A stretch of 64,000 bases of DNA from Hyaloraphidium curvatum (Eukaryota > Monoblepharomycota > Hyaloraphidiomycetes > Hyaloraphidiales > Hyaloraphidiaceae): the NCBI GenBank assembly GCA_025558095.1, contig JAIVFI010000004.1, positions 496,001 to 560,000 of the forward strand. Direction: 5' to 3'. The notes under the pieces are model-generated. The model saw nothing but the letters and a program-made list of their open reading frames with translations, made no database searches and was not told the origin of the DNA. Of the stretch, positions 20,323 through 43,269 are shown one piece after another. Position 1 is the first letter of the stretch; every line of letters starts with the position of its first letter. The translations under genes were made by a program, and so were the position numbers.

Positions 20323-22119
20323 ATGGAGAGTGGCGAAAGCGCGACTGCAAATGGAGAATTTGACGCACGGGGGAGCCCCAACGAAACGACTCCGCTGGTG
20401 GGAGACACGCAGTCGGAGTGCTCAGACTCGGACAGTTCCAGGGATGAATCTGCCGCAGAGGAGACCCGGGAGCTCCTGTCCTTCACGTTGCCCGTCAGCG
20501 CTGCTTACCTGCTCAGTTATTTGGCGCAGGCGACGTCTATGGTATTCCTCGGACATTTGGGGGCGATGGAGCTTGCCGCCGGCTGTTTGGCAATCACCTT
20601 CGGAAACGTGGCCGGTTTCTCCATGTTGATCGGCCTCGCGACCGCTGCGGACACGCTATGCGCGCAGGCGTGGACGATGAAATCGGACGATCCGCATGCC
20701 GTCGGGGAGATCCTCCAACAGTCGCTGCTCGTCATGTTCGTGGCCTGCGTCCCGACTTGCCTCGCCTTCTGGTTCGCAGGGCCGATCCTGCTGGCCCTCG
20801 GCCAGGACAAAGATGTCGTGGCGCTCGCATCGGAGTTTCTTAGGATTCTGATCCCGGCTGTGCCGGCTTTCGGGGCCTTCGAATCGATCAAGAGGTTTCT
20901 GCAATCGCAAGGCGTCGCTTCTGCCTATACGGCGGTCATCTTTGCCACCACAATCCTGAACGTGCCCTTGACGTACGTGCTCGTGTGGCGGGCTTTGGGC
21001 TTCGTCGGGGCACCCATAGCGATAGCCGCCGTCGCCTGGGCTAATCTGCTGCTGATCCTCCTCTACGCCCGGTTCGTGGACGGCGCGCAGGGATTCGGCG
21101 GATGGTCGCGGGAGGCGGTGCGGTGGAGGGCCCTCAAGGCCTATCTGAAGCTGGCGCTTCCCGGCGTCCTACAGGTGGCCTCGGAGTGGTGGACCTTCGA
21201 GGTGCTGGCCATCATGGCCGGTCTATTGGGAAGCAGGGAACTCGCGGTGCAGAGCGTCGTCACGACCATAACGTCCTTGATATTCATGCTGCCGCTTGGA
21301 CTCAGCGTCTCGACGACCACTCGGGTTGCGCAGAAGCTCGGGGCGAACCGACCGCAGAGAAGCCAGATGGCGTCCCTCTGCGGCCTGGGTCTCGGATCCG
21401 CATTCGGACTGGTCGCCATGGCCGTGCTGCTCGTGTTCAGGCATCAGCTGGGCGGCCTTCTTACCTCCGATCCCGATGTCATTGCGGCGGTCGGCGATGT
21501 GCTGTTGGTTGCCGCCTTTTACGAGCTCGCTGACGCCATCAACTGCGTGGCAGCCGGTGTCCTTCGCGGCGTCGCTGCGACCGGATACGCAGCTGCGGCC
21601 GCCTTTGTCGGCTACTACGTCGTCGGGCTGCCTCTCTCGGGCGTGCTGGCATTCGGGCCCCCGGCATTGGGGCTCCGCGGGATATGGATCGGGATTACGG
21701 GAGGGATTGCCCTTTCCATGACGCTGCAGCTTGCCGCCATCTCGACGATCGACTTTGAGGCCGAGGTTCTGCGGACCAAGAAGCGGCTTTTGGTTGGGGA
21801 GAAGCCGTCCGCCCTCTTCAGCCCGGGTTTGGGCTCGACCATCCTCCGCAACGGCCACTCGGGCTTTTCCGCGGACCTGAACTTCACCTTCCGATCCCAG
21901 GCGAGCATCGACGAAATTGCAGCGGCCGCGGCGGCGGCGTTCCGCGACCCGGGCGCGCCGTCGATTCGCATCACCCGCACCGAGCCTGTGCCGACGGACC
22001 GGATTCTGACACGGACGGCGGCTTCAAGATTCACGGCGTCGCCGCTCGTGTCGCCGACGCTCTTTGGGTGGGCATCCTTCAAGAGCAGGATGGAGGCGGG
22101 GGCGCCGAATGACGTGTAA
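20323..22119 (+). CDS. MATE-family multidrug/toxin extrusion transporter
   Basis: Single exon, 598 aa. After a ~45-residue acidic/Ser-rich cytosolic N-terminus come about twelve hydrophobic helices in the two-times-six MATE arrangement: LLSFTLPVSAAYLLSYLAQA, MVFLGHLGAMELAAGCLA, LATAADTLCAQAWT (the conserved tail of helix 2), IKRFLQSQGVASAYTA (the MATE FLQSQ motif), then the second half with GVLQVASEWWTFEVLAIMAG, RVAQKLGANRPQRSQ and AAGVLRGVAATGYAA. Family members export cationic drugs and metabolites by H+ or Na+ antiport at the plasma or vacuolar membrane. The C-terminal 100 residues are a Ser/Arg-rich tail. It lacks introns, unlike most neighbours, which could reflect recent retroposition or transfer, or chance. 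Confidence 0.92.
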   Translation: MESGESATANGEFDARGSPNETTPLVGDTQSECSDSDSSRDESAAEETRELLSFTLPVSAAYLLSYLAQATSMVFLGHLGAMELAAGCLAITFGNVAGFSMLIGLATAADTLCAQAWTMKSDDPHAVGEILQQSLLVMFVACVPTCLAFWFAGPILLALGQDKDVVALASEFLRILIPAVPAFGAFESIKRFLQSQGVASAYTAVIFATTILNVPLTYVLVWRALGFVGAPIAIAAVAWANLLLILLYARFVDGAQGFGGWSREAVRWRALKAYLKLALPGVLQVASEWWTFEVLAIMAGLLGSRELAVQSVVTTITSLIFMLPLGLSVSTTTRVAQKLGANRPQRSQMASLCGLGLGSAFGLVAMAVLLVFRHQLGGLLTSDPDVIAAVGDVLLVAAFYELADAINCVAAGVLRGVAATGYAAAAAFVGYYVVGLPLSGVLAFGPPALGLRGIWIGITGGIALSMTLQLAAISTIDFEAEVLRTKKRLLVGEKPSALFSPGLGSTILRNGHSGFSADLNFTFRSQASIDEIAAAAAAAFRDPGAPSIRITRTEPVPTDRILTRTAASRFTASPLVSPTLFGWASFKSRMEAGAPNDV

Positions 22120-22924
22120 ATCCATCCAAAAGAACACTATGTCACCCGCGCTCAATGATCGGGACCGTTGCTCTTCGAATGGATTTGGGGCCCGCTCTCT
22201 AGGTCCACTAGCGAACGAGCGGCGCCAGGGGAGACATGCCGCGTGTCAGGGACGGACCGACAGGGGATCGACACGCCGCTGCATCAGGCCCCGAAGTGGT
22301 TACCTCCCGTCTTGTGCTTCATGTACAAGTGTCGTGATGGGCCGGAAAGTCGGCCCCGATCTCGTTTCTCGTTCTCCGATCTGACTCGACTGCAAGCGGC
22401 AACGCGGAAGGTGCCGATTCCCGGTGCGGGCTTGGCCCGAACTGCCCCGCCTAGATGTGCATTAATCAGAGTCGCCCCGAATAACACCGTGGCGTCTTTC
22501 CTAGTGGAAGTGGATCGGCGGGGAACGACCGGAAGGATGTTTCGAATCGGGCCGGCCATGTTGCCGAAGGCCCTTTTTCGTTCCCATCATCACGTGTTTC
22601 TCCTTCACACGGTGTTCTCGCCATCCCGACGCCCTCACAGGTTCGTGTCCGCCCCGCGGGGAGTGGTGCGGCTACGTGAAGTACGGCAGCGCGGGGCGTC
22701 ATCGGGGGAAGGGCCGCAACGGCCTGCGGGCTGCTCCCCGAGGCTCCGCGGTCCGGCCCGGCCGGCTGCTTGTCCGCCGTTCAACGCGTTCGCCCCGCCT
22801 TGGGCGTGCGGCTTTCGGTGCAGGCCGGCTGCCTTGTGCTCTGCGTGCCGCGCCGCCGTGTTGCGGCTTGCCCCGCCCCGTTGCGACCGGTGCCTGACCA
22901 TCCCGTAGAGAACTCGCATCGAAG
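22120..22924. other. 805-bp gap, upstream region of the fumarate reductase gene
   Basis: Co-oriented genes flank this interval, so it holds the MATE 3' end and the fumarate reductase promoter and leader. A 247-codon open frame (22168-22908) has no recognisable domain and a composition typical of GC-driven chance frames. Nothing else is seen. Confidence 0.45.
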
Positions 22925-25311
22925 ATGTCGACCCAGGTCATCGTCGTCGGCGGCGGTCTCGCCGGCCTTTCGGCCGCCCACACCGTCATTGAGCGCGGCG
23001 GCAACGTCGTCGTGCTCGAGAAGAACCCCTTCCTGGGCGGCAACTCGACCAAGGCCACCTCGGGCATGAACGGCGCCCTGACCAAGACCCAGATCAAGCT
23101 GGGCATCCCCGTGCGTGGCGCCGCACCGCTCGGTCGCCGGCAGGTGCCCTGACGCGCCGGCATCCGCCCCGCAGGATTCGGTGGACATCTTCTACGAGGA
23201 CTCGGCCCGCTCGGCCCGCGACCTCATCGTCCCCGAGCTCACCAAGGTGTTGACCTACAACTCGGCCTCGGCCGTCGAGTGGGTCAACGAGAAGTTCGGC
23301 GTCGACCTCAGCCTGGTGTCGCGTCTCGGCGGCCACTCGCAGCCCCGCACGGTGAGCCTGCGGAACTCCGATCGGGCACCCCCGGACGGTCCCGGCTCAT
23401 ACAGGATGCTTTCCCCAGCACCGCGGCAAGGAAAAGTTCCCCGGCATGACCATCACGTACGCTCTGATGGAGAAGCTCGAGGACCTGGCCATCTCGCACC
23501 CCAAGAACGTGCGCATCATCAAGAAGGCCAAGGTCACCCGCCTCCTCCAGGACGCCGCCGGCAAGGAGGTCATCGGCTGCGAGTACGAGCACGACGGCAA
23601 GCTCTTCTCGGAGTACGGACCCGTCGTCCTGGCCACCGGTGGCTACGCCGCCGACTTTACCGCGGACTCGCTCCTCAAGAAGTACCGGTGCGTGCGACGC
23701 GGTTGGGCGCAGATGGATGCGTGAGATGCTTACCTTCGTGTTGTCTGAAGCCCCGACATCTACGACCTGCCCACCACCAACGGCGACCACTCGACCGGTG
23801 ACGGTATCAAGATGGCCCTCGCCCTCGGCGCCAACACCATCCACATGGAGAAGGTGCAGGTGCACCCCACGGGTCTCGTCGATCCCCAGGAGCCCGACGC
23901 CAAGGTCAAGTTCCTGGCTGCCGAGGCGCTCCGCGGTGTCGGCGGTATCCTGCTCAACAAGGAGGGCAAGCGCTTCTGCGACGAGCTCGGCCACCGCGAC
24001 TACGTGACGGGCGAGATCTGGAAGACCCCCGGCCCCCACCGCCTCGTGCTCAACGGCGCCGCCGGCCGCGAGATCGAGTGGCACGTCAAGCACTACCGCG
24101 GCCGCGGGCTGATGAAGTCGTACTCGTCGGGCGCCGAGCTCGCCAAGGACATGGGCATCTCCCCCAAGACTTTGGAAGAGACCTTTAACGCGTATAACGA
24201 GGTGGCTGCTTCCAAGAAGGACCCCTACGGCAAGAAGTTCTTCCACAAGTGCGTTATTCGCTTGTTTGTTTGATTGCTTCGAGATCTGACACTCCACCCC
24301 CCCCTTTCTCCTCCTTTCTTCGCTTTAGTGTTCCTTTCAAGATGGACGATGAATTCTGGGTTGCGCACATTACGCCCGTGCTGCACTTCACGATGGGCGG
24401 CCTCCAGATCGACGACCAGTGCGACGTCATCTCGTCGGCCGGCGCCACGATCCCCGGCCTGTTTGCCTGCGGCGAGCTCGGCGGAGGCGTGCACGGCGCC
24501 AACCGTCTCGGCGGCTCTTCGCTGCTCGGCTGCGTCGTTTTCGGCCGCGTCGCCGGTGACACGTGGGTGTCGGGCGGGGTGGGGCGAACCGATCCCTTGG
24601 CTGACAACGTTTCGATTCTCCATCGCGCGCTTTTTCTTCCGTCGCATTCATGCAGCGCCTCGCGCTACCTCTTCTCGCGCCTGTCGTCGTCGCAGGTCGC
24701 GACCGCCCGTGTCGGCCAGGTCGCCAACCAGCTCGGCGGCATGAAGCTCAACGTCGTGCCCAGCGCCAACGGCCTGCAGCTCGAGATCACCTGGGGCGGC
24801 GACGCCATCAGCGTGCCCGCGCCCCTGCCCGCCGCCGCGCCCGCGCCCGCCGCCGCCCCCGAGCCGGCCGCCCCCAAGGTCGACCGCAGCAAGGTCTACA
24901 CCTACGAGGAGGTCGCCAAGCACAACACCGAGCAGGACTGCTGGGTCGTCGTCAACGGTGCGTTGACGACAGGAGGGCAAATTGGTTGTTGTTTCGGTGA
25001 CTGACGTCCGGGCTTTCAGGCGAGGTCCTCAACGCCACGCCCTTCCTCGGCGACCACCCCGGCGGCAAGAAGGCCATCCTGCTCTACGCCGGCAAGGAGG
25101 CTTCGGAGGAGTTCAACATTTACGTATACATGTTTGCGCTGCTCCGTTCGGTCGCTGACTCGTTCCGTCTTGCAGGCTGCACAAGCCCGACGTCGTCGAG
25201 AAGTACGCTCCCCACATCATCATCGGCAAGAGTGGGTTGCTCTGACTGCCTGGCTGCTCAATCGTGCTGACCGCTTGTCGCGTTTCAGTCGACCCCGCCT
25301 CCAAGAAGTGA
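22925..25311 (+). CDS. Soluble fumarate reductase (Osm1/Frd1-like) fused to cytochrome b5
   Basis: Nine exons give 618 aa: 22925-23110, 23175-23351, 23419-23687, 23751-24248, 24329-24562, 24656-24957, 25020-25131, 25176-25231 and 25289-25311. It begins with an FAD-binding Rossmann motif VIVVGGGLAGLSAAHTVIE and EKNPFLGGNSTKATSGMNG. The FRD/SdhA-type catalytic region follows: VQVHPTGLVDPQEPD, FCDELGHRDYVTGEIW, and the substrate-side HFTMGGLQI and GELGGGVHGANRLGGSSLL. A Pro/Ala linker leads to a C-terminal cytochrome b5 domain with YTYEEVAKHNTEQDCWVVVN and the haem motif HPGG. It has no mitochondrial presequence, so a cytosolic location is likely. The enzyme reduces fumarate to succinate with reduced flavin or b5, re-oxidising NADH under low oxygen. 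Exon 7 ends at an atypical donor (GTTTGC, 25132) and the 44-nt intron is short; this junction is tentative. Confidence 0.92.
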
Positions 25312-25556
25312 AGTCGGATCGGCAATCTGTTGATCTTTCGAGGGTTGAGGGTTGAAGGTGCAAGTCTGCAAGTCTTCAAAGTGGACTCAACTGTCCGAAA
25401 TACATAGTTGAATCGCTGATTTGCCGGTTTGGAAACTGCGGGGCTGTCGGTCCGAAAGTCGGTGGGTGATGAGTGGGCGGGCGGCACGTTTTCCCGAGAG
25501 GCGCACTCCGCGTTCCGGAGCCGGTGCCCGGCGGCAAAGGGGGCGCCTTTTCGGAA

Positions 25557-28500
25557 ATGGACGATTCGGACGGCGAGGCGCCAATTTGCGGGCGGGGCAA
25601 GCCGCCGAGGGTGCCGGACGATGACTCGGACGGCGGCGAGGTGGCGGCGGGAAAGGGCGGGTCGGGCGGTTCCAGCGAGCCGGGCGACATCGAAAGTGAG
25701 ATGACGGCTTTCATTTGCGACGGGCGGAATCTGACGGCCGGCTTCCGAAAAGCGGAGGGCGGCTCCGGGGCTTCCGGTCCAGCGGGCCAGCCTCGGAGCG
25801 GCGGGCCTTCCAAAAAGGGGGCCGGCTCGGAGGACGATGATTCGGAGAATGGAGGCGACGAAGAGATGGGGGATGGCGAGGAGCGGAGCGATGGGGAGGC
25901 GGGAGGTGGGGGTGCGAGATCCGGGGGGGTGGCCGAGCGGCGACTGACGTGTTCCGGCAGATCGAGAGGCGGACGATCAGGTGATGCAGGATGTTTGGAA
26001 GGTGCAGAAGAAGCTCGAGGGTGGGATCTGGCGTGCATCGGGTTTTGCAGCCTCTGATTTTCGGGGGTTGCAGAAGGGGACGGCGATTTCGATGCGGAGG
26101 GCTCGACGTCCGAGGAGTGCGAGGGCTCCGAGATCGGCTACGATTCGGACGAGGGCGGCGATCGTTCCGGCCAGGCGTCGGAGAGCGAGTCGGACGGATC
26201 GGATGTCGATCGGAGGCCGAGGCGGGGTCGGGGACCGGCGATGCGCGGTCGAGGCGCTCCGGGATGGGCGATGCGCGCAAAAGGGGTGCATGCTGCGGCG
26301 AGGGTGCTCGAGATGGCGGAAGCGGCCGATCCGGAAAGCGGGGCGAGCGACAACGAGGCGAGCGACGACGAGGCAAGCGAGGACGGGGCGGTCAAGCTGC
26401 GCGCGCTAAAAGGGAAGCAGGTCGTGCGGGCGGACGGGTCCTTCGGGAGCAACGAGCGGCCTTCGGCGGCGCGCCTCATGCAGCCGGCGAGCGTGCAGCA
26501 TCCCGTTCCGCGCATAACGGTCGTCGACGACGAGGCGGCGCTGTTCTTCGGGCCGGCCGGCGGTGCGGACGGAGGCGGCGATCGGACCGAGGCGCTCGAC
26601 GGCGACGGCGACGAGGAGATGGAGGTGCTCGAGAGCGGGCTCGTGGAAAAGGGGCGGCTTTCGCCGTTGGAGCTTCCGATCAAGCGGAGGGCGCCCGGTT
26701 CGCGGTCGGCCTCGCACTCGCCGCCGCCGACGCCGACGCCCAAAACTCCGGCCCGCAAGAAAAAGGCCAAGGCGGACGCGGCAGCGAAGGAGCAGGCCCG
26801 GGTCAACCCGGCGGCGGAAATTCAGCGGACGTTCATGTTTGCGCGGGACAAGCTCGGGCGCGTGTTCATGGTGCGGCGGGTGGACGACGACGGACACAAG
26901 TACCCTTGCTATGCGGCGCCGTTGTGCAAATCCAAGAACGTCGAGAACACCTTCCGGAGGCACGCCAGGACGTGCGATGAAGTCGCGAAGCTGGGCTACG
27001 GATTTCTCGACATCACCACCACGCAGTACGGGATCGATCCGCCGCCGGGGGCGTCGGCGGTTCAGCGGGCGGACAAGTTCCTGCAGAAGATGCGGGGTGC
27101 AGTGCTGTCCAACAACAAGACAGCGCCGGAGGAGGAGCGGATCCGGCCGACCAGGAAGGCGGTCAATCCCGTGATCGCGCCGGAGCTCCGGCGTGCGATC
27201 GAGGACGGCGCGTTTGCCAAGACCAGCGCTGGCGATGTGCTGCATTTCGTGCTCGGCGAGGACGGCCGCTTCGTGTGCGGGGAACACGGCTGCGCGGCAA
27301 CGGATCTCCGTCGGCACGCGGAGAAGTGCCCGGTCGCTGCCCATGCCGAGGGCGCGCTGGACCTGACGGTGACGCAGTACGGCATCGCGCCGCTGGCCAA
27401 GAAGGGCGCCACGAAGCTCGAGCGCGCGGACCACTTCCTCAACCAGCTCTTTCGAGCGACCATCTCGATCGGCAAGGCCGGCGCAGCCAGTGCGAAGCGG
27501 GCGGAAGTGATCGAGAAGGAGGCCGGGTCCGCTTTCGAGCTGAACCGCCTGAAGATCATCACCGAGCTGCTGCGGCAGACGGGCGCGGTGTCGCTGGCGG
27601 AGCTGGAGAAGGGCAAGATGTCGTACGAGTGCCTGGTGCAGGGCTGCAACCAGCAGATCCAGTAGTGGGTTCATCACGCGCAGCATCGCGCCGGCGCTCG
27701 ATTTCCCGCTGACCCACTATCCTTCCAGTGCCAAGTTCGTCTGCACGCGCGTCTGCGCCCGGCACCTCGGGGCCCAGGGCTTCGGACTCGTCGTCTGCGC
27801 CGGCTGCGGCGTTATCGCGGACTCGATCATGGCGGGCGAGTACTGCACGGCATGCCTCAGCGACGCCTCGGCATCCTCCCCGGAATCCCGGCACCTGCAC
27901 CCCCTGGCCTACGCCGACTGCGACCTCGCGCTGTACCCCCTGCCGCCGCCCGGCACGCCCATCTTCTACGGCATCCTCGGCACGCCCGAGAACCTCCCCC
28001 TGCTCCGCTTCCGCGAGAAGCTCGTCGAGGTGCGCGGAACTTTCGTCTGCAGGCCGTCGTCGTGCGGCAAGCCCAAGTTCTCGTGGGTCTTTTGCCGGCT
28101 GCGTGTCGAGCATGCGGCCTTGCTCACGCACTCTGCCGACAGGGAAGCAGCAACCTGCTCTTACGAATGCTTCCACGAGTTTGCCGCGGAATGCGGCCTC
28201 GAGTCGCCGCCCCGCTGCGCGAGGGAGCGGTGCAAGCGCGTCGTCAACTTCGGAAACCCGCGCCCCGCCTACTGCATCTGGTGCGCCAAGCACGACGATC
28301 TTCCGCCGCCCGGCGTCGGGCACCCGGCGTCGTACGCGGACTGGGTGCCGAACAGCAAGAGGTGGGCGCGACCGGCGGGGGCTTCTCGTGGCGGGGACTC
28401 ACGATTTTCCGCAGGATCCTGAAGGTGCCCGATTGCGTGCCGGCCAAGATGCCCGGCGCCAAGGAGACCTTCTTCGACGACCCCGAGAACGAGCGGCTCT

Positions 28501-28882
28501 ACTACGAGGAGAACATGGATGTCTGTGCCTACTGCAACGGGTTCCACAGGTGGGTTGTCCGCCCCGGCCGCTCGATCAGCTGCCGACCGTGCACCCGCCC
28601 CGCAGGTCGCACGACGACGACCTGGAGCCGCTCTTCTGCACACGAGAGTGCGCCGTTTCGTACGCCATCGTCGAGAACGTGCGCCTGCTCACGTGCACGC
28701 GGGGCTGCGGTCAGATGATCTCCCGCGTGCACGGGTCGATCATGCACTGCGGCGGGCCCAAGTGCCGCCAGCGGCTAACGGCCGGCACGTACTTGGACAA
28801 CGTAAGGAGCTGGCCGCAGCTTGCTCCGCTGTACCCCGAGCTCAACTTCGACGACATCTCATTCGAGGGGGACGAGGAGTAG
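25557..28882 (+). CDS. Module gene A: acidic protein with C2HC fingers and Cys-cluster array
   Basis: Not recognised. Six exons give 1016 aa: 25557-25911, 25961-26020, 26074-27664, 27729-28361, 28415-28549 and 28606-28882. The first ~400 residues are acidic and disordered, ending in a basic patch ARKKKAKAD. Then come two fingers, CYAAPLCKSKNVENTFRRH..C and CGEHGCAATDLRRHAEKC. Each is followed by a spacer with LDITTTQYGI or LDLTVTQYGI and then RADKFLQKM or RADHFLNQL. A third half-repeat follows (YECLVQGC). The C-terminal 350 residues carry repeated CxxC/CxxxC clusters (CAGC, CRPSSC, CSYEC, CIWC, CAYC, CTREC, CTRGC) reminiscent of treble-clef/MYM-type zinc modules. Nucleic-acid binding is a guess from composition. 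Gene B follows on the same strand after 159 bp, and the pair recurs in decayed form at 38,395-40,114. The 27665-27728 junction could instead be coding repeat with a 1-nt shift. Confidence 0.7.
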
Positions 28883-29041
28883 GTGGTGGCCGAGGCGGCG
28901 GCGGGAAGCGATGCAGAAGGGACGTTTTTCAGATTCACCAGTTTTGCGATTTGCCATTTGTACAGATGATGTTTCGGGCAATTTGGAGGATGACGTGGTG
29001 CCGGGCACGTGCAAATGTGGAGCGGCTGGGGAGGCGAATCG

Positions 29042-32000
29042 ATGAAGAAGCCGCACCGGCCCAGCGGAGCTCCGACAGCCGACAACCCCGGAGCCCTCGC
29101 AACCATGGCGGCCCGTAGGGCGGTCACGGGCGAGCGTGTCCGGCAGATGCTCCTCGACAATCTGACCCCGCTCGCGAGGAAGCTTGTGGACGAGGACGAG
29201 GAGGCGACGGTCAAGCTCAAGCTCGTCGGGCCGGCCGTGCAGGGGGCGCTCATGATCTTCCATGCCGAGAGTCCCTTTACGCTCGCCCATCGGGACGCGA
29301 TGCTGAGCCACCTGCGCAAGCAGCGGGGCGTGGAGCGGGCGCGCGTCGTGACCAGGACCATCAACAACCTCGACGACGGCTTCATCATCGAGGTCCTCAT
29401 CGGCAACCCCGATCCGGACCCCACGTCGCCGCACCCACACTCGAATGCGCTCTCGCAGATCCTGCGGAAGGACAAGGGCCCGGGGGCGCAGCGCTCGAAG
29501 GACGACGATGACCCGTTCGCCGGCAACCTCCCGCACCCACACGCGGCCATGCTCGCCTGGATCATCGTCGGGACGCTGCCGGTCACCGTCTGGAACCCCG
29601 CGCGAGGGGCCATGACGACTGCGGAGCGCACGGCGCAGCAGGCGCGCGTCGACGCGCTGGTGCCGCTCCGACTGCCGTACGCCCAAGTGCGCGCCCTCGT
29701 CTGCGAGGCGCTCAACTACCCGACGGGACCCCTCACGCCGCTGACCGATTCCACGAGAGTGCTGGTGCGCAAGTTCGAGCGGATGGGCAGCGACGGTTCG
29801 GACTTCTGGGCTTCCCTCGGGGTGCGGATCTTTCGAGGCGCTCGGGGCGCATCGAACTCATCGTCACGCCCTGCAGATCGGCCATGCCAGCGGTTACGCA
29901 TTCAAGACGGAGGAGCGCGCCTTGCAATGCGACTACGCTGATCTGGGCACCGTTGCGGAAGTGGTACCGCCTCCGCCGCCGCCACCCCCGCCCGAAGGAG
30001 CCGACGACGATCCCAACCCCAACCCGAACCCGAACCCGGCCGCCGATTTCGCGAACTGGAATATCCGCCGTGTGCACACCTACCCGGGCTTTTGGGGCTT
30101 GAACGTCTCCACCAAGCTGGCTCCCTTCACGGCGGCGCTGCACCTGGGCGAGGGCCACCCCGGGAACTGGGTCCCGAACGCCGCCACCATCGCTCTGCTC
30201 GGCATTCAGGAGGCGCCTATCGACCTCATCGTATGCGATCCGATTTCCGTCGGCGAGCTGCTGGACAAGGTCAAGGTGCCGCCGAACGGGACCGTGGTCA
30301 ATGGGAGCGGGCATCTGCGGAGCAAGGTGATCTCGCGCCTCGTGCATCCGACGGAGGAGCGGCTGCGCACGGCGGCACGTGCCGATCGGGGACCGCGGGC
30401 GCCGAAGGAGAGGGCGACGCTGGTCGACGACTTCTACCGGGAGGACAAGATGGCGCTGTCGACGCACAACGTGGATGCGGCCGAGTACGGCACCGGCGGG
30501 TCGCCTGACGCGCACGTCAAAAGCCCCGCTCGCCGCCCTGCCGCGTTTCCGCCCCCGCCGGAGTCGGACGACCTGCCCGAGGTCCCCCGCGTCGTGATCC
30601 AGATCCGCGTCTCGGCCAAGGATCTTGCCTCGCCGCGGGAGTGCATCTGGCAGGCGGTGGTCCTGCTCCGGGTCATCGAGTACATCGTGCGGCGCAGCGG
30701 CGTGCTCGAGATCATCTTCGTGTTCGAATACGGCGCAGTCTCAAACGCGTCGTACCCGGCGGTCCGCGACAGGAGCGTGCTCTGGAAGGCCATTGAGGGC
30801 GACTTCTCGCAGATTCGCAGCAAGCACAGGCTTGCTTTCGTCAGGCGCAGGTCCCCGGGGAACCCTCCGGTCGGTGCTCATCGGCGCACCCTCGTCCTTT
30901 CTGTCGCCCCGCACCGCATGGATCGCTTCCACCTGCGGCTGGGGGACGAGGCGGCCAAGATCTACGAGGGCCGCTTGCCCAATGACCCCGAGCGCAACAT
31001 GTTTTGCAGCTTCACCCCGGACTCGGCCGACCCGACCGAGTTTGTCGAGCTCGCGCCGGGGAGCCATGCCCTGCGCGTCGAGACGCAGCGCCTCAAGGAG
31101 CTGGAGCTCAACACCGCCGCGCGTGCCAGCAGGATGCACATCGTTGCTTCGGACATGAACTTCAACGCGGCGGTCGATCGAGGGGCCAACAGCCTGCTCC
31201 AGTTCAACATTCAGACGGTGGGCGGGCGCTTCATCTTTTGTGGGCCATGCTAACGCAAATGCTCGCACAGGTCTTTGCCTTCGTCGCCTGTCACGACTAC
31301 TCCAAGGCCGTCCTCATGGACCGCTCTTCCTCGGTCGGCAATCCCGCCTACGGCGTCGACGCGGCCGAGGCCGTGCACCCGATGACCACGCTGCGCCTGG
31401 CCAACACCAACTTCGGCGTCCACTACGTCGCCGAGCACCGCGACGACCTCGAATTCACCACCGTCAGGCTGGACCACGTCTCGGCCAGCCACGAGGACCA
31501 GGCAGAGGCGCAGTTCTTCGAGGAACTGGTCATGGTCGGATGCGCTGCGATCGTCTTTCTCCGCGACCTCTCGCGCCTGACCCGCGGCGGGATTGAGGCC
31601 GTGCTGCGAATCCTGCGCAAGCTCCAGGCCGCGAGCGCCACGCTCGTCCTCATGCACGTTCCGCACTCGTTCCTGGCAAACTGGCCGAATTGCGAGGCGA
31701 TGCTTAGGGCTCTGTGGACGCCGCTGCTGTTCGAGCGCTACCTGCACGCTGTCGGGCAAGCGGCCATGCGCGAGTTCATGAACGAGGTCGACAAGTTTCG
31801 GGCGACGGCTTCGGACTCGACACAAATGATCAACTTCCCCGTCGTCCTCCAGGGCCTGGACGGGAACCCGAACCCCGAGCTCATGCGCCGCGTCGAGACG
31901 GTCGCGGCGCGTGAACGGGCCGCGGCGCAGACGCTGGCTTCGGAGCGCTACGCCCGCTTCCTCACGCGCGTCGAGTCGTCGGCCGCGATCCCCAGCAACC

Positions 32001-32527
32001 TCGCTCCCCCGCCGGGCACGACCGAGGTCACGCAGGCCATGATGGTGGAGTTGGCGCAGATGGCGCAGGTCGTGGTCGGGCCGCAAACCGACGTTCGAGG
32101 CTACGGGCAGGACCTGCCGACGCAGGTTTACCCGGCCCCGTCGTTCACCCGGGAGGGCGTGTGCGCTTGTGAAGCACAGTTCTTTCACGTTCCCTTTTGC
32201 TGGTGCATGCCGGGCGAGTGCCCGTTCTGCGACAACTCGCAGCCCCTGCTCTGCGAGAGCGGCTGCTCGCCGTTCGACTGCCATTGCGCGCTCGGCTGTA
32301 CCTGCAGGTGCCGGCGCGGGCCCGGAAACACCCCCGCCTGGTGCTGCAAACACTCGGACATCGGCGTCACGAACCCGCAGCTGACGGCCTTCCGCATCGT
32401 CGAGGGCCTCGGCCTCGACAACGACGAGCTGCCGGTCGCCCTCCAGAGCAGGGCTCTGGTCGACGCCGACACCGCCGTCGAGGCCTACCGCAGCACCGGC
32501 GCCAAGGACGACGACGACGAGGAGTGA
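29042..32527 (+). CDS. Module gene B: large unrecognised protein with Cys-rich C-terminus
   Basis: Not recognised. Three exons give 1125 aa: 29042-29821, 29877-31217 and 31271-32527; introns of 55 and 53 nt close the frame exactly. An internal ATG at 29105 is an alternative start. Features: an N-terminal domain with GERVRQMLLDNLTPLARKLV, a Pro-rich and Asn-Pro repeat linker (NPNPNPNP, near residue 300), and a middle domain with IIFVFEYGAVSN. A region with VFAFVACHDYSKAVLMDRSS and VGCAAIVFLRDLSRLTRGG follows (alternating hydrophobic strands and acids). The end is a very Cys-rich segment, CACEAQFFHVPFCWCMPGEC followed by CDCHC-type spacing and CKH. The protein ends in an acidic tail DDDDEE. No P-loop, DDE triad or protease motif could be assigned with confidence. 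A shortened paralogue lies at 39476-40114. Confidence 0.7.
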
Positions 32528-33047
32528 AGAGCTGGAACGAGTTTCACGACGGACACTTTTCGCAACGGACGCTTTCGCAACGATGCTTCTCCGAGATACA
32601 CACCGGATCGTGCTTCGACCGCAGATACCCTCTCGAATGTACAGCTTTGTCTTCAATTGGATTCGTTCGATTTTCCGACTTTGCCGCTTCGTCCGCCCCG
32701 TCCGAACCTCTCGCAAACCAGCCAAGAGTTATAAAAGGGCAGGCAATGAAACGGGGAGCAGAGGGAAAAGGGGAAGGTATCGAACGGGGAGGAAGCGAAA
32801 AGATGAGAAGATCGGAAATAGAGCAGTTCGAGCGAGCACTACGAAGCATTCCCGGCACGGCGAACCTAATCATGGCTTTGATGGGCACTGATCAGCTCTA
32901 CCTGCTCGTCGCTCCGGTGGCTCGAACGTCTGGCGAACGTGCCGCATCCGAGCGTCCCCCAGGTCTGCGGTGTGGCAAGTGCCGGGCCCGGATGAACCGC
33001 CATAACCCCCGCGATTCTCTCCTCGAGCAATAGCTGCTCTTTTAACC
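32528..33047. other. 520-bp gap before the carboxylase gene
   Basis: Holds the gene B 3' end and the promoter of the carboxylase gene. TATAAAA at 32730-32736 is one of the few clear TATA-like boxes in the window. A small open frame (32746-33033) is annotated separately. Confidence 0.5.
32746..33033 (+). CDS. Possible small protein (95 aa), hypothetical
   Basis: Open frame of 95 codons whose ATG lies only ~10 bp after TATAAAA, so a transcript from that box would more likely use the second Met at 32803. The segment SEIEQFERALRSIPGTANLI, followed by MALMGTDQLYLLVAPVA, has a balanced amino-acid composition unlike the Arg/Pro-rich chance frames around it, and ends with a CGKCRARM pair of cysteines. 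It stops 14 bp before the carboxylase ATG, so it may equally be leader sequence. Weak call. Confidence 0.25.
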   Translation: MKRGAEGKGEGIERGGSEKMRRSEIEQFERALRSIPGTANLIMALMGTDQLYLLVAPVARTSGERAASERPPGLRCGKCRARMNRHNPRDSLLEQ

Positions 33048-36000
33048 ATGAAGGTGTCTTGGACGGGGAAGCGCCCTGCTTCTTCCAAGCCCGGGGAGCC
33101 GGCGGGCCCGACAGAGGCTCTACCGTCGTCGGCACCGTCTCAACCGCCCGTGTCTCCCGCGTCGTCGCGTCTCGGGGCCATTGCGGGCCATCTGGCAAAG
33201 CCCGGAGCGCCCGGAATACTGATTGCGAACCGAGGAGAGATTGCAATCAGGTGATTTGGTTTCCGGGGCATTGAGCTCGGAGACAGTCGAAGCTGACGCG
33301 ACGGCACGACAACGGCCAGGATCGCGCAGGCGGCGGCTTCGCTGGGCCTCCGATCGATCGCCGTCTTTTCTGAGGACGATTCCTTGAGCCTGCATGTCCG
33401 CAAGGCCGACGAGGCCTACCCGCTCAAGGGTAGAGGGCCTTCGGCGTACCTCGACGTGGCCCAGATCGTCTCGATCGCGCGGGAAGCGAAAGCGGCGGCC
33501 GTGCATCCCGGCTACGGCTTCCTCTCCGAGTTGCCCGAGCTGCCGGCCGCACTGCAGGCCGCCGGGATCGCGTTCGTCGGGCCCTCGCCCGCCTGCCTCG
33601 AACTCTTTGGGGACAAGCAGGCCGCCAAGGACCTGGCGTCCAGGTGCGGCGTGACGATCGTGCCCGGCACGCGCGCAGTGGCTTCGGCGGAGGAGGCCCT
33701 CGTCTTTTTTCGCTCCGTCGCCGATCCCGCCGTTTACGAGGGTGTGATGGTCAAGGCGGTCTACGGCGGAGGCGGCCGCGGCATGCGCGCCGTCACCTCG
33801 TCCGCCGAGCTACCCGACGCCCTGGCGAGGTGCCAATCGGAAGCCCGGGCAAGTTTCGGCCGCGGCGAGGTCTACTGCGAGGCCCTCGTCTCGCGTCCCA
33901 GGCACATCGAGGTGCAGCTCCTTGCGACGGCTTCCCAAAGGATCACGCTCGGAACGCGCGACTGCACGCTCCAGCGGCGCCACCAAAAGATCGTCGAGAT
34001 CGCCCCGGCGCCTTTGCTTGATCCCCGCGTTGCTTCGGAGCTCGAAGCCGCAGCCATCCGGATGGCCGCCGAGGCGCGGTTCGTGGGGCTCGGCACGTTC
34101 GAGTTCCTCGTCAAGGGCAACCGCTGGTGGTTCATTGAGACCAACGCCAGGGTGCAGGTTGAGCACACCGTGACCGAGGAGGTGTACGACGTGGACCTTG
34201 TCGCGGCCCAGATCCGGATCGGGCTGAACAACAACATTTCTTTGGAGGAGCTCGGATTGGGCGACTTTGTCGGCGGGCATGTGAGACCGAGGGGTTGGGC
34301 GGTGCAGCTGAGGGTCAACGTGGGTCCATTCCTCCCCGATCCCAACTTCGTTCATGCCCGCTTTCACAGATGGAGAAGGCCGAGTACCTCGGCGGCCCCG
34401 AGCCCGTCTGGGTCCCCACCTCCGGCTTGACCATCCACGCTTTCGAGCCGCCCTCGGGCCGGGGCATCCGCGTCGACGCTGCGGCGTATTCCGGGTACCG
34501 GACCAACGCCTCCTTTGACCCTCTGCTGGCCAAGCTGATCGTGTCTGGCGCCTCGCTGGGGAACGTGCTCAAGCGGTGCGTCAGGGCCCTGGAGGAGTTC
34601 AGGATCGAGGGCGTCGAGACCAACGTGCCGTTCCTGAGGGCGGTGCTCGAGGCGGAGGACGTCGCCGTTCTCGGATCGCACGCTCCCGCCGGCCTCGATC
34701 TGCACACAAAGTGGATCGAGGAAAAGATGGAGGCGCTCGCAGCTGCGGCAGGGTGGAAGGGCAAAAGGACGGACTCCAAAAAGCTGTTCTTTTCGGGTGC
34801 GGAGCTTGGCGTGGTGACGCCGGCGCGGCAGGAGGGCGGGGCCGAGATGCCGGCGATCGCGACGCCGCCGGGGACCGTGCCGACCGTGGTGCCGATGCAG
34901 TCGACGATCGTCAGGTGGGTTTGGCAGAACCTCATCGGAAACTGCCGGCCCGTTGATCGGATCCGCCCAGCATCGACGTCAAGGTCGGAGACAGCGTCAA
35001 GAAGGGCCAGCAGCTCGGCGTGCTCAACGCGATGAAGATGGAGCACGTCGTCTACGCGACCGTCGCGGGCACGGTCCGCGCCATTACCGGCACCGTCGGG
35101 CTTACGCTCCCCAAAGCCTTCCCGTTCGCCTTCATCGAGCCCTCGGAGGGCGTCGGCGAGGAGGAGGAGGTGCTCGCACAAGTCGACCTCGATCACATCC
35201 GCCCCGATCTGGCCGAAGTCAACTCGCGGATCGCCCTCACCCAGGACGCTGGCCGCCCCGACGCCGTCGCGCGCCGCCGCAAGCTCAGGAAGCGCACCGC
35301 ACGCGAAAACATCCTCGACCTCGTCGATCCCGACAGCTTTATCGAGGTCGGCGCGCTGCAGCTCGCGGCGCAGCGGCAGCGGAGGAGCTTCGAGGAGCTG
35401 CTGAAGCTGAGCCCGGCGGATGGGATGGTTGCCGGTTGGGCTCACGTCAACGGGGACCTGTTTGACGACGAAACGAGGACGAGGGTGATGGTTTCCAGCT
35501 ACGACTACACGGTGTTGGCGGGCACGCAGGGCGTCATGAACCACAAGAAGGTGCGTCGGATCGGCGGTCGGAGCTGGACAGGAACTGAACAGTGTTTCGC
35601 CCGAGCAGAAAGACCGCGTTTTCAAGCTTTGCCTCGAGTACAGGGTTCGCGTCTCCGGTTGCCTTCAAGTTCGATAAGGTCCTCACCGACTTCGTCTCCG
35701 AAACAGGTTCCTGCGGTATTCTTTTGCGAAGGGGGCGGCGGTAGACCCGGGGACACCGACATCGAAGCTGCAGGAGGCCTTGACGGCAACACTTTCCGCC
35801 TCGTGGGTCTGCTGATACCCCGATGTCGTCTGTCCTCATGTCTTGCGATTCGCAGTGGGCTCAACTTTCCGGTCTTGTGCCGCTGATCGGGGTGACGAGT
35901 GGCTACTGCTTTGCGGGCAATGCGGCCATCCTGGGACTCTGCGATGTCATCATTGCGACCGAGGATAGCAACATCGGGATGGGAGGGCCGGCCATGATCG

Positions 36001-37108: not shown

Positions 37109-38394
37109 ACGAGGACTGTATTGCGAACTAGACGATCTTTGGCACATGCTGGATCCTGGGCGCCGTCTGTTGTTCGTGAACAAGGACAAGCGAGGTGCGG
37201 AAAATGAGAACCACGAATCCCCGACATCTCTGAGCAAGGAAACGACAACGGCCGATATGAAACAGCTATTCAGCCGTACGAATCATGAGTAGGCTCGAAG
37301 AAATGTGGTCAGTTTGCTGACGCCGGCATCTGCGCAAAGTTATTCCCGCCAAGATCCCCAACCTGTAGGACAATTGCTGCAAAACCAAATGCCCAAAGCA
37401 AGAATCCAGTAGGAACAAACATTTGACGTCTTTCAGTCAATCACCGAACGCTCCACGACGGCATCTAATTCGGCCAGGCTGTTTGCCGACAGAACCAGGA
37501 GCACGAAACCGATGCAAGGGAAACGAAACCGGCCGACTTGAAACAGCAATACGAGCTTGCGAAATGGAAGTCGGCGGAAGGGCTTCGGCGAGCAGGCTGT
37601 CCTTTACATCTGCGCAAAGTTTGACCAGTTCCGGTGCCTGCCACGCAAGCGTGTCGCAGAAGGTCCAAGTGCCCAAACCAAGTATCCAGCAAAAGTAACG
37701 AACCTCTTGGCACGCATTCGATGTCGTGCGGCTCCTCGATAACGGCTCTACAAGGACCTGCGGCCTGTCGGAATGCTCGTTGCCGACGGATCTGGAACCA
37801 CGAGCCCGACGCAAAGGAAACGGCACCGGCCGATTGGAGACAGGTGTACAATAGTGCGGATATGCAACGAGCGGAATAGCTCCGGCGAGCAGGCTGTTCG
37901 CTACATCTGCGCAAAGTTCAGGCGCCAGCGGACTAGCAAGTCCAGGCGTTCGAAAACCGCCCAACGAGCCATCGGAGCGTTGAAAAATGCTTGCCGCGCT
38001 ATGTACTGGCTCGGCAGACGATTGAATGTTGCCCCGCCGGAAAGAGAACGCGGTCTCGCCCAACGAGGAAACTCGACGTCCCAGCTCACTGAACGCGCCC
38101 AAAACCACCCCGAGTACGTGTAGATGACCTCAAGTGATCCAATTTAACGGCAAGATGGCCGAAGGGAAGGGAGGTAGGTCGTACGGGCGTCCGTGCCGTC
38201 CACGACCGCGTCCCGGATGGGTGTGCCAATCCCGTCGAATCCCGGGCCGGCGCCATCGCCTTCCACTCGTTCATTCGACATGGCAACTTCCGTTCCATAA
38301 CCAGCATCGTACCAGCGCCAATAGATTTGAGCGGTCGGACACCTCGACGCGTCTGTTTGGCATCGCGACGACACGTCACGAACGCCGCGGAAAA
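37109..38394. other. Gene-poor interval with degenerate tandem repeats
   Basis: 1286 bp with no supportable gene. Its base composition is nearer 50% GC than its surroundings. It includes the three imperfect repeat copies annotated separately, and ends where similarity to module gene A begins. A minus-strand open frame of 223 codons (37437-38108) starts at GTG and owes its internal repetition to the DNA repeats. Confidence 0.55.
37195..37935. repeat. Three imperfect tandem repeats of about 280-297 bp
   Basis: The word ATCTGCGCAAAGTT occurs at 37328, 37608 and 37905. A second landmark, GGAAACGxxACCGGCCGAxTT-like, recurs at about 37238, 37518 and 37815. In each unit the same further words follow (for example CCCAAAxCAAGxATCCAG and GAGCAGGCTGT). 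Copies 2 and 3 are closest; copy 1 is more diverged. On the minus strand copies 2 and 3 encode similar peptides (LCADVANSLLAGAIP versus LCADVKDSLLAEALP), so the unit may once have been protein-coding. Confidence 0.75.
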
Positions 38395-39182
38395 CGATCA
38401 CAGCCGACTCGCTCGTGGCGGGCGAGGTCTCCACCGCGTGCCTCGCCGACTCGTTGCCCCGGATCCCGAAGGTGCGGAGGCTGCACGTGCCGGCCTTCGC
38501 CAACGGCGTTGCCCGCGCCCGCGCGTTCTACGGCGCCGTCGGAATGCCGGACAAGCTCCCCATGACGCGCTTCCGCGAGGCGGTCCTCGCCGTCCGAGGT
38601 GTTCTGGTCTGCAGGCCGTCGTCGTGCGGCAAGGCCAAGAACGTGTGGGTCTTTCCTGTCCACTCGGGAGCGCCGCCTTGGCTCACAAAGCACGGCCTGC
38701 AAGGAAGCCGCGACGTGCTCGTACGTCTGCTTCCTCGGGTTCTCGAAAGACTGCGGCCTCGACGCGCCGCCCCGGTGTGGGCGGAACGGGTGCCCCCGCC
38801 TTGTCAACCTCGCCGATCCGCTGGGATGCTTGTGCTCCTGGTGCGCCACGAACGGCGACCTGGCGCCCGGGAAAGAAGGGGGGGGGGGGAGGGAGGAAAG
38901 GAGAAGGGGGGGGACGACCTGATCCCCTACTTCTGCTCGCGCGAGTGCCGCATCCTGTACTCGATCGTCGAGAACGTGCGCCTGCTCACGTGCACGCGGG
39001 GCTGCGGCCAGATGATCTCCCGCGTGCACGGGTCGATCATGCACTGCGGCGGCAGCAAGTGCCGCCAGCGGCTGACGGCCGGCTCGTACCTGGATAACGT
39101 CAGGAGCTGGCCCCAGCTCGCCCATCTGTACCCCGAGCTCAAGTTCGACGAGATCGCCGCGGCGGAGGGCGATGAGGAGTGA
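38395..39182 (+). pseudogene. Decayed copy of module gene A (A')
   Basis: Similarity to gene A begins near 38395 (VAGEVSTACLADS against MAGEYCTACLSDA), which corresponds to the middle of A. It continues through RPSSCGKAKNVWVF and, in another frame, EAATCSYVCFLGF and CLCSWCATNGDL, then returns to the first frame with LIPYFCSRECRILYSIVEN. The C-terminal 75 residues, from VRLLTCTRGCGQMISRVHGS to FDEIAAAEGDEE, are nearly identical to A. The finger region and the segment equivalent to A exon 5 are missing; the latter is replaced by a G-rich tract at 38879-38918. A 46-nt intron reading (38652-38697) could explain one frame change. Loss of the whole first half and the simple-repeat junction argue for a pseudogene or a rapidly diverging remnant. 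Confidence 0.75.
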
Positions 39183-39341
39183 AGAGGCGGCGGCGATCGG
39201 TTTGGAGCCAGCGAAAGAAGCGGCTGTCATGTCGGGCACACGGCCTCCGATGCCGATCAGCGCACCTGCACGTGCGCCGGTTCCGGTGGGTGCCTGGCGT
39301 GCGGGGGCATCCTCGCTCGCTCGGTCGTACGGGGCACCAAG

Positions 39342-39371
39342 CGCACGCGCGCCGAGGCGGGTCTGCCGTGA
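39342..39371 (+). repeat. 30-bp direct repeat, copy 1
   Basis: CGCACGCGCGCCGAGGCGGG followed by TCTGCCGTGA. It recurs with one mismatch at 40085-40114. In both places it can encode the same C-terminal tail KRTRxEAGLP plus stop, and both are followed by related sequence ending GTGATCGCTG, so the duplicated block is longer than the perfect core. Confidence 0.7.
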
Positions 39372-39475
39372 CGGCTGAAGCGGTGGGCCGGACGCTACGA
39401 AATTAGTCGTGTAATCGAAGCCGTGATCGCTGGCATCTCCATTATCCCGGGCGTGAAGCAGGTCGCTGTGGAAAG

Positions 39476-40114
39476 ATGAGTCGCCGGGAAAGCCCGGTAA
39501 CAGCCCAGGAGTCGACAGTCCACCCAACCATGACCGTTCCCACGCCGCCGCCCCGTCGGCCCGTCACGGCCGAAACTGTCCGACAAAAGCTAGCCAGGAA
39601 CAGCCTGAGCGGGCTCGCGGAACGCTTGCCGGACAAGGACGAAGAGTACGACCATCTCACGGGCTACGGCTACGTCCATGGGGACAGGAAGCTCGACTAC
39701 GACTTTCCAAGCATCGGGACCGTCGCCGAGGTCGACCGGGAGGCAGAGGAGGAAGACCCGGCCAAGTGGTCGCTGCGTCGCCTGCACATCGCGCCCGGCC
39801 CCTGGGGTCACGCCGTCTCCCGCAAGCTGGCCTTCTTTGCCATCGCTCTGCATGTCGGTGATCCCGGCGCTTGGGTGCCGCGCCGAGGCGCCTACCTACG
39901 CTCGTCGGATCAGCCGCCCGACCCGATCGCCACGGGCCCGATCCCGGTCCAAGAGCTCCTGTGGGAAGCGAGGCTGCCGCAAGGTAGCGCTCTCTGGCGG
40001 AGTGAAGGCCGCCTCCGCACTTCGATCGTAGGCACGCTGGTGCGCCTCACGGACGAGTCGGCGGAAGCCGCAGGGGGGCAGAAACGCACGCGCACCGAGG
40101 CGGGTCTGCCGTGA
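39476..40114 (+). pseudogene. Shortened copy of module gene B (B')
   Basis: Open frame of 212 codons. Its start resembles gene B (ETVRQKLARNSLSGLAERLP against ERVRQMLLDNLTPLARKLV). It then jumps to the part of B at about residue 270: HLTGYGYVHGDRKLDYDFP, GTVAEV, WSLRRLHIAPGPWGHAVSRK and ALHVGDPGAWVP align with HASGYAFKTEERALQCDYAD, GTVAEV and the following stretch. It ends in a new tail KRTRTEAGLP. So it is an internal and C-terminal deletion derivative of B that is still open. It could be expressed as a short protein; without the B C-terminus, loss of original function is likely. It follows A' in the same order as B follows A. Confidence 0.7.
40085..40114 (+). repeat. 30-bp direct repeat, copy 2
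   Basis: Partner of 39342-39371 (one mismatch, 743 bp apart). The two copies bracket B', and copy 2 forms the end of its reading frame. Confidence 0.7.
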
Positions 40115-40280: not shown

Positions 40281-42497
40281 ATGGGCGACGCGGGCGAGCC
40301 GGCGGCCAAGCGGCGGCGGCGCGGAGGGGCGCCGCGCGACGGCGGGGGCGGCGCGGCGGCGGGCGGGCCGGCGGGCGGCGAGGCGGGCGGCGGCGCGGCG
40401 GGCGAGCTCGCGGCGCTGCGTGCCGAGCGCGACGCGCTGCGGGCGCACGTGCGGTCGCTCGAGGAGCAGCTCGCCGAGGCCGCCGGCCAGACGCAGCGCG
40501 CAACAACGCTGCTCAACACGATGCCCGTCGTGCTCGTCGAGACGGCGCTCAACGGCGACGTGCTCTTCATCTCGAAGCACTGGGAGAAGATGATGGCCAT
40601 CTCCGACTCGGCCGTCGCCCTGGGCAGGGGCTTCCTCGGCTACATCCACGAGGAGGACAGGGACGCCGTGCTGGCGCGCTTCCAGGCCTTCCTCGACTCG
40701 GGCGAGCCGTACGGCCACTTCGGCGTCTGGCGCCAGTGGAAGGCCGGCCGCAAGGAGTGCATCTACATCGAGGGCTCCGGCGTGATCAACAAGGGCCCGG
40801 ACGGGAGCCCCACAGGGTACCTGTGCACGCTCGTGGACGTCACCGCCATCAAGCAGGCCGAGTTGCGGGTCAACCAGGCCCTTGTGGAGGCGCAGGCCGC
40901 CAACGTCGCCAAGGCCGTCTTCACGGCCAACGTCGTAAGTGACTTTTGGCCGCCTCGGGAGCTCGAGAGGCTCACTTTCCGCCTGCTTTTCAGAGCCACG
41001 AAATCCGGACGCCGCTACACGGCGTGCTCGGCTTTCTGCAGCTGCTCGAGGACACCCCGCTTACAGAGGAGCAAAGCGGTCTCGTTGCCGCGATTCGCGA
41101 CTGCTCCGAGGGCCTGAACGCCTTGGTCTCTGATGTGCTGGACTTGGCCAAAGTGGGTCGCTCTGGGCTGGCCACGGTTGCCCTCGCTCACCGCACCCGT
41201 TCGCGCAGATCGACGCGGGACAGCAGTCCGTCGTCGAGTCGCCCTTCGACTTCCACGGCTGGCTGTGGAGCCTGCTGTACGTCTGGGGCGTCAAGGCCGC
41301 GCAGAAGAACATCACGATCCGGCTGGACATCGGCGGCACCTCCCTCCCCACGGACCAGCTCCTCGACCTCCCGGGTCCCCCGCCGCAATCGCGGTACGCC
41401 CCCAGCTCGCCGCAGCTGGCGGGCCCCGCGCTCAACGGGCACCCCCCCGGCGGCGCGGGCCGCTCGCCGTCGCCGCTCCCCGGCGCAAAATGCCTGCGGC
41501 ACCCCGGAATGCGGTCCCTCCCCGCGATCCTCAAGGGCGACGACGCCAAGCTCAAGCAGATCGTGGGCAACTTCCTCGCCAACGCGCTCAAGTTCACCGA
41601 GCCCGGCGGCGCCGTCACGCTCGCCATCGCCTTGGACCCGCTGCACCCCGCCCGCGGCCCGCGCGCCGATGTGCTCCGCGTGGCCGTCTCGGACACGGGC
41701 TGCGGCATCCCCTCCGACTCGGAGGCGCAGTCCAAGCTCTTCCGCGCCTTTTCGCAGCTCGACACGGGGATCCAGCGCCGCTTCGGCGGCACCGGGCTCG
41801 GGCTGGCCATCTCCAAGAGCCTGGCCGAGCTCATGGGGGGCGAGATCGGGTTCGAGAGCGACGGCGTGGGCCGCGGCTCGCGGTTCTGGGTCTCGGTGCC
41901 GGTGGAGCGCGGCGACGAGGCCGGGGAGGTGCACGGCGCGCCCAAGCCGCGCGAGGCGCCCGCCGGGTCGCTCAAGGAGTTTGCCGGCCTGGCCGCGGAG
42001 CACCCGACGCGGATCCTGGTGGCGGAGGACAACGCGCTGAACCAGCAGCTGCTCCTCAGGCTGCTTACGAAGCTCGGGTACGATCCCGAGGCCGACGTGG
42101 TGGTCGCGAGCAACGGGCAGGAGGCGCTGCAGCGGTTCGTCGCCGTGAACGGGCTGATTTCCCAGGCCAGCCAGTCGCACAACGCGCTGGGGCCGGGGAG
42201 CCCGAGGCCGTTCAAGCTGATCCTGTGGGTCGCCGATCGCGCTTCCTCGCCGTCTTTTGCGCTGACCCATCGTCATCCAGCATGGACCTTTCTATGCCGA
42301 TCCTGGACGGGATCGAGTGCACGCGCCTCATCCGGCAGCTCCCCCTCGCCCCGCACTGTGTCCCGCGGATCGTGGCGCTGACGGCCAACGTGCAGTCGAC
42401 GGACCGGGAAAAGTGCACCGAGGCGGGGATGGACGGGTTCCTGGGCAAGCCGCTGCGGGTCGGGGACCTGGTCGAGACGATCAAGAGCATGGGCTAG
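40281..42497 (+). CDS. PAS-domain hybrid histidine kinase with receiver
   Basis: Four exons give 681 aa: 40281-40934, 40994-41152, 41209-42224 and 42281-42497. A Gly/Ala/Arg-rich start and short coiled segment (ELAALRAERDALRAHVRSLE) precede a PAS domain (about residues 80-200: VVLVETALNGDVLFISKHWE, EGSGVINKGPDGSPTGYLCT). Then HisKA with the H-box SHEIRTPLHGVL, HATPase with N-box GNFLANALKFTEPGG, G1 DTGCGIPSD and G2 FGGTGLGLAISKSLAELMGG, and a receiver with EDN near its start, phospho-acceptor Asp in MDLSMPILDG, and the KP motif GKPLRVGDL. All catalytic boxes are intact. It should autophosphorylate on His and pass phosphate to the Asp, signalling through an Hpt protein and response regulator. 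No membrane helix, so cytosolic sensing via PAS. Confidence 0.93.
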
Positions 42498-43127: not shown

Positions 43128-43269
43128 GGCCGAGGGCCCGATGCCACAGGAAGGATGGATCTGCTTATTCAGCTACCTCGTTTTGCGTTGACGTATTGAA
43201 TGATGACCTCTGTCTTTCTCCGGGCCTGATGAGCGAGAATGGGACCGCAAGACCACAGCGTGCCTCCAA

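Follow-up and report, generated by a model that had tools for sequence, protein, structure and literature searches.

A pair of adjacent genes for large Cys-rich proteins in Hyaloraphidium curvatum, with partial copies elsewhere in its genome

In the genome of Hyaloraphidium curvatum (Monoblepharomycota, class Hyaloraphidiomycetes in the taxonomy), we analyzed a 64,000-nucleotide window, namely positions 496001-560000 of contig C4, in which two adjacent forward-strand genes, here termed A and B, encode large proteins with conserved Cys-rich regions. Within the protein, viral, and prokaryote searches that we made, A-B appears as an undescribed pair without a foreign homolog, and parts of it recur elsewhere in the window and on the contigs C15, C26, and C27. 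Our searches of the organism's own genome covered 31.9 Mb in 55 contigs, and all copy counts given below are lower bounds.

Gene models and architecture of A and B

A and B are coding genes (Table 1). Our rebuilt models agree with a first-pass annotation of this DNA on two adjacent plus-strand genes and on a B of 1125 residues, whereas A comprises 1013 rather than the 1016 residues proposed earlier. Gene A runs from an ATG at 25557 to a stop at 28882 and is interrupted by introns of 55, 53, 67, 53, and 56 nt, while the two introns of B measure 55 and 53 nt. As had been claimed, all seven introns close the frame: each has GT-AG borders, and both joined frames stay open up to the stop. The codon composition accords with coding genes, with a GC content at third positions (GC3) of 0.86 in A, as opposed to 0.50 at second positions (GC2), and a GC3 of 0.88 versus a GC2 of 0.48 in B. 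The 159-nt gap described between the genes holds for a B start at 29042; it becomes 222 nt with the Met at 29105, which is the likelier start because the nr model of B begins there and because the C15 relic, whose similarity lies around this Met, has no ATG where that of 29042 would be.

The nr record of B itself (hypothetical protein DFJ74DRAFT_655273, Hyaloraphidium curvatum) is 835 aa long; it skips 61 nt (31682-31742) at a joint that is non-GT-AG, by which the frame is changed and the Cys tail lost. We regard this public model as cut short, since the frame in the genome stays open as far as 32527, with an end that is also kept in the C27 homolog. The 61-nt gap is probably an annotation or cDNA artifact. 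We also suspect that it may stem from transcript data, which would mean that B is transcribed. A short direct repeat, CTG, flanks the gap on both sides.

Protein A consists, in order, of an acidic low-complexity N terminus, a Pro/Thr-Pro and Lys-rich stretch, two C2HC modules, and a Cys array. Each module combines a predicted C2HC finger with a 'TQYGI...RAD.FL' segment, and the repeated fingers noted in the first-pass annotation are borne out as a duplicated module by their alignment, which scores 99, against a maximum of 47 among 2000 shuffles, none as high. The Cys pairs, grouped by eye into three, were also compared as a possible three-fold repeat; 73, 107, and 1178 of 2000 plain shuffles scored as high, as did 160, 194, and 1422 of 2000 with Cys held fixed, and we do not claim this repeat. 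In protein B, a Pro-rich stretch is centered around aa 290; both proteins terminate in acidic residues.

Spaced sets of Cys/His ligands are kept between homologs in both proteins. In a two-sequence alignment of the B tail with its homolog on C27, 12 of the 15 Cys fall in invariant columns, while A809-877 and its C26 counterpart share six of seven Cys, with the seventh replaced by His. Its conservation in the C27 homolog shows that the separate Cys-rich end proposed for B is real. Structure prediction for B exon 3 together with the C27 homolog and for the public B protein gave a mean pLDDT (the per-residue confidence score) of 34.3 and 31.6, respectively, a confidence too low for the folds to be judged.

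Table 1. Positions of the A-B genes, their features, and their relics (window coordinates unless a contig is named)
Feature	Position	Strand	Details
Upstream stretch common to C15 relic	25401..25556	+	sharp left limit 25401; 132/152 aligned bases identical
Gene A	25557..28882	+	1013 aa; six exons, five introns; GT-AG, joined frame open
Gene A exons	25557-25905, 25961-26020, 26074-27661, 27729-28361, 28415-28549, 28606-28882	+	rebuilt model
A first C2HC module	26898..27104	+	aa 412-480; internal repeat with second module
A second C2HC module	27267..27461	+	aa 535-599; internal repeat with first module
A Cys-cluster array	27624..28783	+	aa 654-981; 28 Cys, mostly paired; introns 27662-27728, 28362-28414, 28550-28605 inside
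Gene B	29042..32527	+	1125 aa from 29042; 1104 aa from likelier start 29105
Gene B exons	29042-29821, 29877-31217, 31271-32527	+	rebuilt model, joined frame open
B Resolvase-like stretch, sub-threshold	31466..31657	+	aa 773-836; PF00239 below cut-off
B region homologous to C27	31475..32368	+	aa 776-1073; BLASTP E 4e-25, 24% identity over 304 columns
B Cys-rich tail	32162..32347	+	aa 1005-1066, 15 Cys
Decayed A relic, window	38397..39182	+	A 694-787, 800-859, 926-1007; tblastn
B relic, window	39476..40114	+	212-aa open frame joining a B-like start to B263-431
C15 relic	C15: about 115260-117017	-	A1-103 joined to A710-787, frame break, A797-1010, then B3-48
C26 relic	C26:74285-74503	-	A809-877, 44%
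C27 relic	C27:451475-452530	-	B from about aa 760; one internal TGA

Relics, copy boundaries, and selection

A is found at four places in the genome and B at four, with both together at three, the main pair included. Besides the main pair there are four relic places: the window at 38397-40114 and C15, which have parts of both genes, C26, with A alone, and C27, with B alone. The decayed copy reported about 10 kb away is confirmed, with pieces of A694-1007 and B263-431 that span 38397-40087 in tblastn. Its A part matches A in blastn at 87% over 244 columns and at 70% over 348 columns, and its B part matches at 35.5% over 169 aa (tblastn, B263-431). Internal deletions mark both this copy (B about 53-262) and the C15 relic (A104-709). 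The C26 relic was matched at an E value of 2e-12 (tblastn on the region; 8e-10 in the own-genome search), and has weaker pieces to either side, whose scores were reached by 25 and 86 of 5000 shuffles, as well as a frame break; no B match at E<=0.3 was present in the 3.2 kb examined around it, 1.5 kb of which lie downstream. The C27 relic shares 24% identity with B776-1071, and the 9.9 kb examined there held no A match at E<=1. Weak own-genome matches on C3 (E 0.058), C2 (E 0.030), and C39 (E 0.28) were rejected as relatives because tblastn of A and B on the 10-kb regions gave a best E value of 0.11, without a kept Cys pattern. A 57-base DNA match on C38 (E 8e-8, 82%) falls within A's acidic, repeat-like part.

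At two of these places, the window copy and C15 (the latter on another contig), the junction of A followed by B is found again, with order and orientation unchanged. It had been stated beforehand that the proposed module would be refuted if A and B never occurred together elsewhere in the genome; these two places show that they do. At both places the 3' part of A stands together with the 5' part of B, and neither holds the whole of A or the whole of B; own-genome searches with pieces of A and B found no second complete A-B unit. Only one outer boundary, the left limit at 25401, is common to copies (main pair and C15, by alignment and own-genome DNA search), and it follows the upstream gene, whose end was read by eye, at a distance of 91 nt. 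No terminal repeats or matched ends stand out within 25311-33050, and the B 3' end and the DNA downstream of it have no other match in the genome. The neighboring genes of 22001-35500 were not copied at C15 or at the window copy, which outside A-B match this region only by short low-complexity stretches (E 1.9e-4 and weaker). The claim that the pair travels or duplicates as a unit therefore stands for the recurrence of the junction, but not for the movement of a unit, since the relics are partial and share a single boundary. Travel as a unit is compatible with these data, and the same pattern is expected from plain segmental duplication: because both of these junction copies are incomplete in A and in B, a few-kb duplication across the junction suffices, and a sharp limit such as that at 25401 is expected of any duplication.

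Comparison of the copies shows that the C-terminal part of A was under purifying selection, and in both copies for some time. The ratio of nonsynonymous to synonymous divergence (Ka/Ks) between A and C15 over A797-1010 (214 codons) is 0.27 (95% interval, 0.18-0.41), with a fraction of only 0.002 of bootstraps at or above 0.5; against the window copy, the ratio is 0.31 (0.14-0.63) over A926-1007. Since a value of 0.27 is lower than expected for a copy dead from the start, the C15 copy was once a working gene. For B263-431 against the window copy, Ka/Ks is 0.34 (0.11-0.57) at a Ks of 1.84, which is near saturation, and for B against C27 it is 0.77 at a Ks of 1.19, which is not informative. Ks rises from 0.15 at the start of A to about 0.5 further on, a contrast that may reflect gene conversion between copies.

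Two further observations concern the introns and the surroundings of the copies. Intron 5 of A (28550-28605) is precisely absent from the C15 relic, in which intron 4 is kept, and this difference between paralogs would represent either an intron gain or a precise loss. Membership of intron 5 in a family of repeated introns was rejected; its only own-genome DNA match is itself. Read by eye, the frames adjoining the decayed copy at 40281-42497 and 43239-44537 suggest a hybrid histidine kinase of the PAS type and a large, regulator-like protein, the latter perhaps Rab3GAP-like. Diverged repeats of roughly 250-300 nt ('GAAACGGC..CCGGCCGA', 'CATCTGCGCAAAGTT'), also seen by eye, occupy 37120-38130, between a carboxylase-like gene and the decayed copy.

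Searches for relatives and comparison with known systems

In the searches made, neither A nor B has a family match that reaches the curated cut-off (23.3 bits for PF00239), in line with the first-pass annotation, which recognized no family for them. Pfam listed DX alone for A (E 0.34) and only Resolvase (E 0.19) and DEC-1_N (E 0.27) for B, all under their cut-offs; pieces of A and B added nothing to the whole-protein result, and no Pfam zinc-finger family matches either protein at E<=10. Nothing curated or convincing was matched in NCBIfam, PHROGs, or PADLOC, where the best match was to a PHROG of unknown function, over 30 residues of the A linker (E 0.0077). Searches among ~5.8 billion clustered proteins reach relatives that share short exact words and fall within a length range, and remote homologs may for this reason be missed. 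Within this reach, none of the 7987 candidates scored for A 380-1013 matched at E<=10, and A's own record was not among them; B found only its own record at E<=10 among 7996; and the B/C27 alignment, used as a query, matched none of 7995. Moreover, three scans of viral contigs yielded no relative, a prokaryote genome scan with B exon 3 yielded none, and PDB sequence searches gave a best E value of 0.31, with no plausible match. Literature searches with the organism's name brought up nothing on these genes, although other literature may treat them.

The pair shares features with several known systems. Like fungal lineage-specific orphan families, A and B are coding, spliced, and partly constrained, without outside homologs found; they stand apart by their very large size (~1000 aa for each protein), their adjacency, and their joint copying at the junction. 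Protein A resembles C2HC and FCS/MYM-type finger arrays in its C-x2-4-C pairs and in a repeated module of the form C-x(4-5)-C-x(7-11)-H-x(3)-C, but differs from described multi-finger proteins in lacking a Pfam zinc-finger match. Cryptons and IS607/Fanzor-type elements are eukaryotic, and fungal mobile elements with recombinases correspond to the mobile-element reading of the first-pass annotation; the recombinases of these elements match neither A nor B over the cut-off, and no Pfam match to TnpB/Fanzor was obtained. In large serine recombinases, a core is followed by a Cys-rich DNA-binding tail. The weak similarity of B to the Resolvase profile covers profile positions 37-100, while positions 1-36, which contain the catalytic Ser, are unmatched.

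The genome also carries serine-recombinase elements of its own. A ~8.2-kb stretch at C4:366968-375135, with copies on C34, C46, and C9 that are 96.8-99.96% identical in long pieces and whose ends stop short of the flanks, encodes a serine recombinase (PF00239, E 2.9e-13, 50.6 bits) and looks like a recently active element in this fungus. A second such family (E 1.4e-15) is present at C9:336634-341290 (an inverted pair), C22:421396-423738, and C2:639742-641904, at 93-97% identity; on C2, an open frame upstream of the recombinase matches GCR1_C (PF12550, E 8.2e-8). A and B had no tblastn match at E<=0.01 in seven 10-kb regions of these elements.

Origin and possible roles of the pair

We favor, at roughly even odds, the reading that A-B is a lineage-specific, repeatedly duplicated pair of predicted zinc-binding, probably nuclear proteins, spread by ordinary duplication; A, B, and their relics look like a small gene family that changes fast. 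The Cys clusters of A and B would bind zinc; A would bind nucleic acid via its C2HC modules and, judging by its acidic low-complexity N terminus and basic Lys stretch, may act in the nucleus; and B, kept adjoining A, would be its partner. The locus would have been copied by segmental duplication, with most copies lost thereafter. The truncated state of every relic is what random duplication and loss would leave, which supports this reading, and so do the intron-bearing coding genes, the C2HC repeat, the Cys kept in diverged relics, the Ka/Ks of A797-1010 against C15, the missing mobile-element family match over the cut-off, the missing matched ends, and the lack of a second copy of the B 3' end DNA. 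Several points weigh against it: (i) host genes are seldom orphans of >1000 aa that lack a known domain; (ii) the relics differ in age (about 84% to 24% amino acid identity) and lie at four places, suggesting repeated spread; (iii) the neighboring genes are absent from both the C15 and the window copies; (iv) Ka/Ks reveals no constraint over A710-787 (0.58; 0.30-1.08) and A1-103 (0.64; 0.30-1.71) against C15, or over A694-859 against the window copy (0.72; 0.48-1.07); and (v) the binding of zinc and of nucleic acid, the location in the nucleus, and the contact between A and B are all predictions from sequence.

Alternatively, A and B may together form a two-gene mobile element present in few copies, either from an unknown class or recently domesticated, in which A would recognize DNA and B would cut and join it; we consider this possible but doubtful. 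The window pair would then be the last complete copy, with internally deleted or truncated remains elsewhere, a picture that accords with the recurring junction, the sharp left limit, the deletions within relics, and the uncopied neighbors. However, a single complete copy was found, the relics are each truncated such that the copied unit itself is not seen, terminal repeats and a second right end are missing, no transposase or recombinase matches over the cut-off, and both genes carry spliceosomal introns of ordinary length. The more specific proposal, that B of such an element contains, at aa about 718-840, a strongly diverged core like that of serine recombinases, followed by the Cys-rich tail as DNA binder, strikes us as quite improbable. 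It draws on an R-x-x-R motif, 'SRLTR', which corresponds to 'SRFTR' in the C27 homolog, on a candidate upstream Ser, on PF00239 E values of 0.19 (whole B), 0.069 (exon 3, 13.7 bits), and 0.15 (public B model), and on the genuine serine-recombinase elements of this genome. Yet these three scores all lie under the cut-off and are not independent, and the C27 homolog has no Resolvase match at E<=10. In addition, when the B/C27 alignment was compared by hhalign with four serine recombinases of this genome, the probability was 0.5%, at another stretch, and a hidden Markov model of those recombinases lists shuffled copies of B (1000 made) but not B. The serine-recombinase lead in B is weak, and the catalytic role that the first-pass annotation proposed for B among its inferences, hanging on a sub-threshold match, gains no support from the C27 homolog or the genome's own recombinases. 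That A-B constitutes a new eukaryotic class of two-gene element, in which A would target DNA and a diverged, Cys-tailed recombinase B would do the chemistry, we hold to be unlikely. Capture from a large DNA virus or virus-like element of chytrids appears least probable, a very long shot: the orphan status of the pair is all that speaks for it, whereas the introns, the host-like GC3 of both genes, and the three scans of viral contigs speak against it.

In summary, the pair adds a clearly bounded orphan family of proteins in which two Cys architectures are conserved, that of B lying beyond the end of the public B model, in a fungal class that holds a single order in the taxonomy. Proof of mobility would make A-B a new class of element, whereas a host pair, as in the duplication reading that we favor, would consist of two large multi-Cys proteins with no trace outside the lineage in the searches made.

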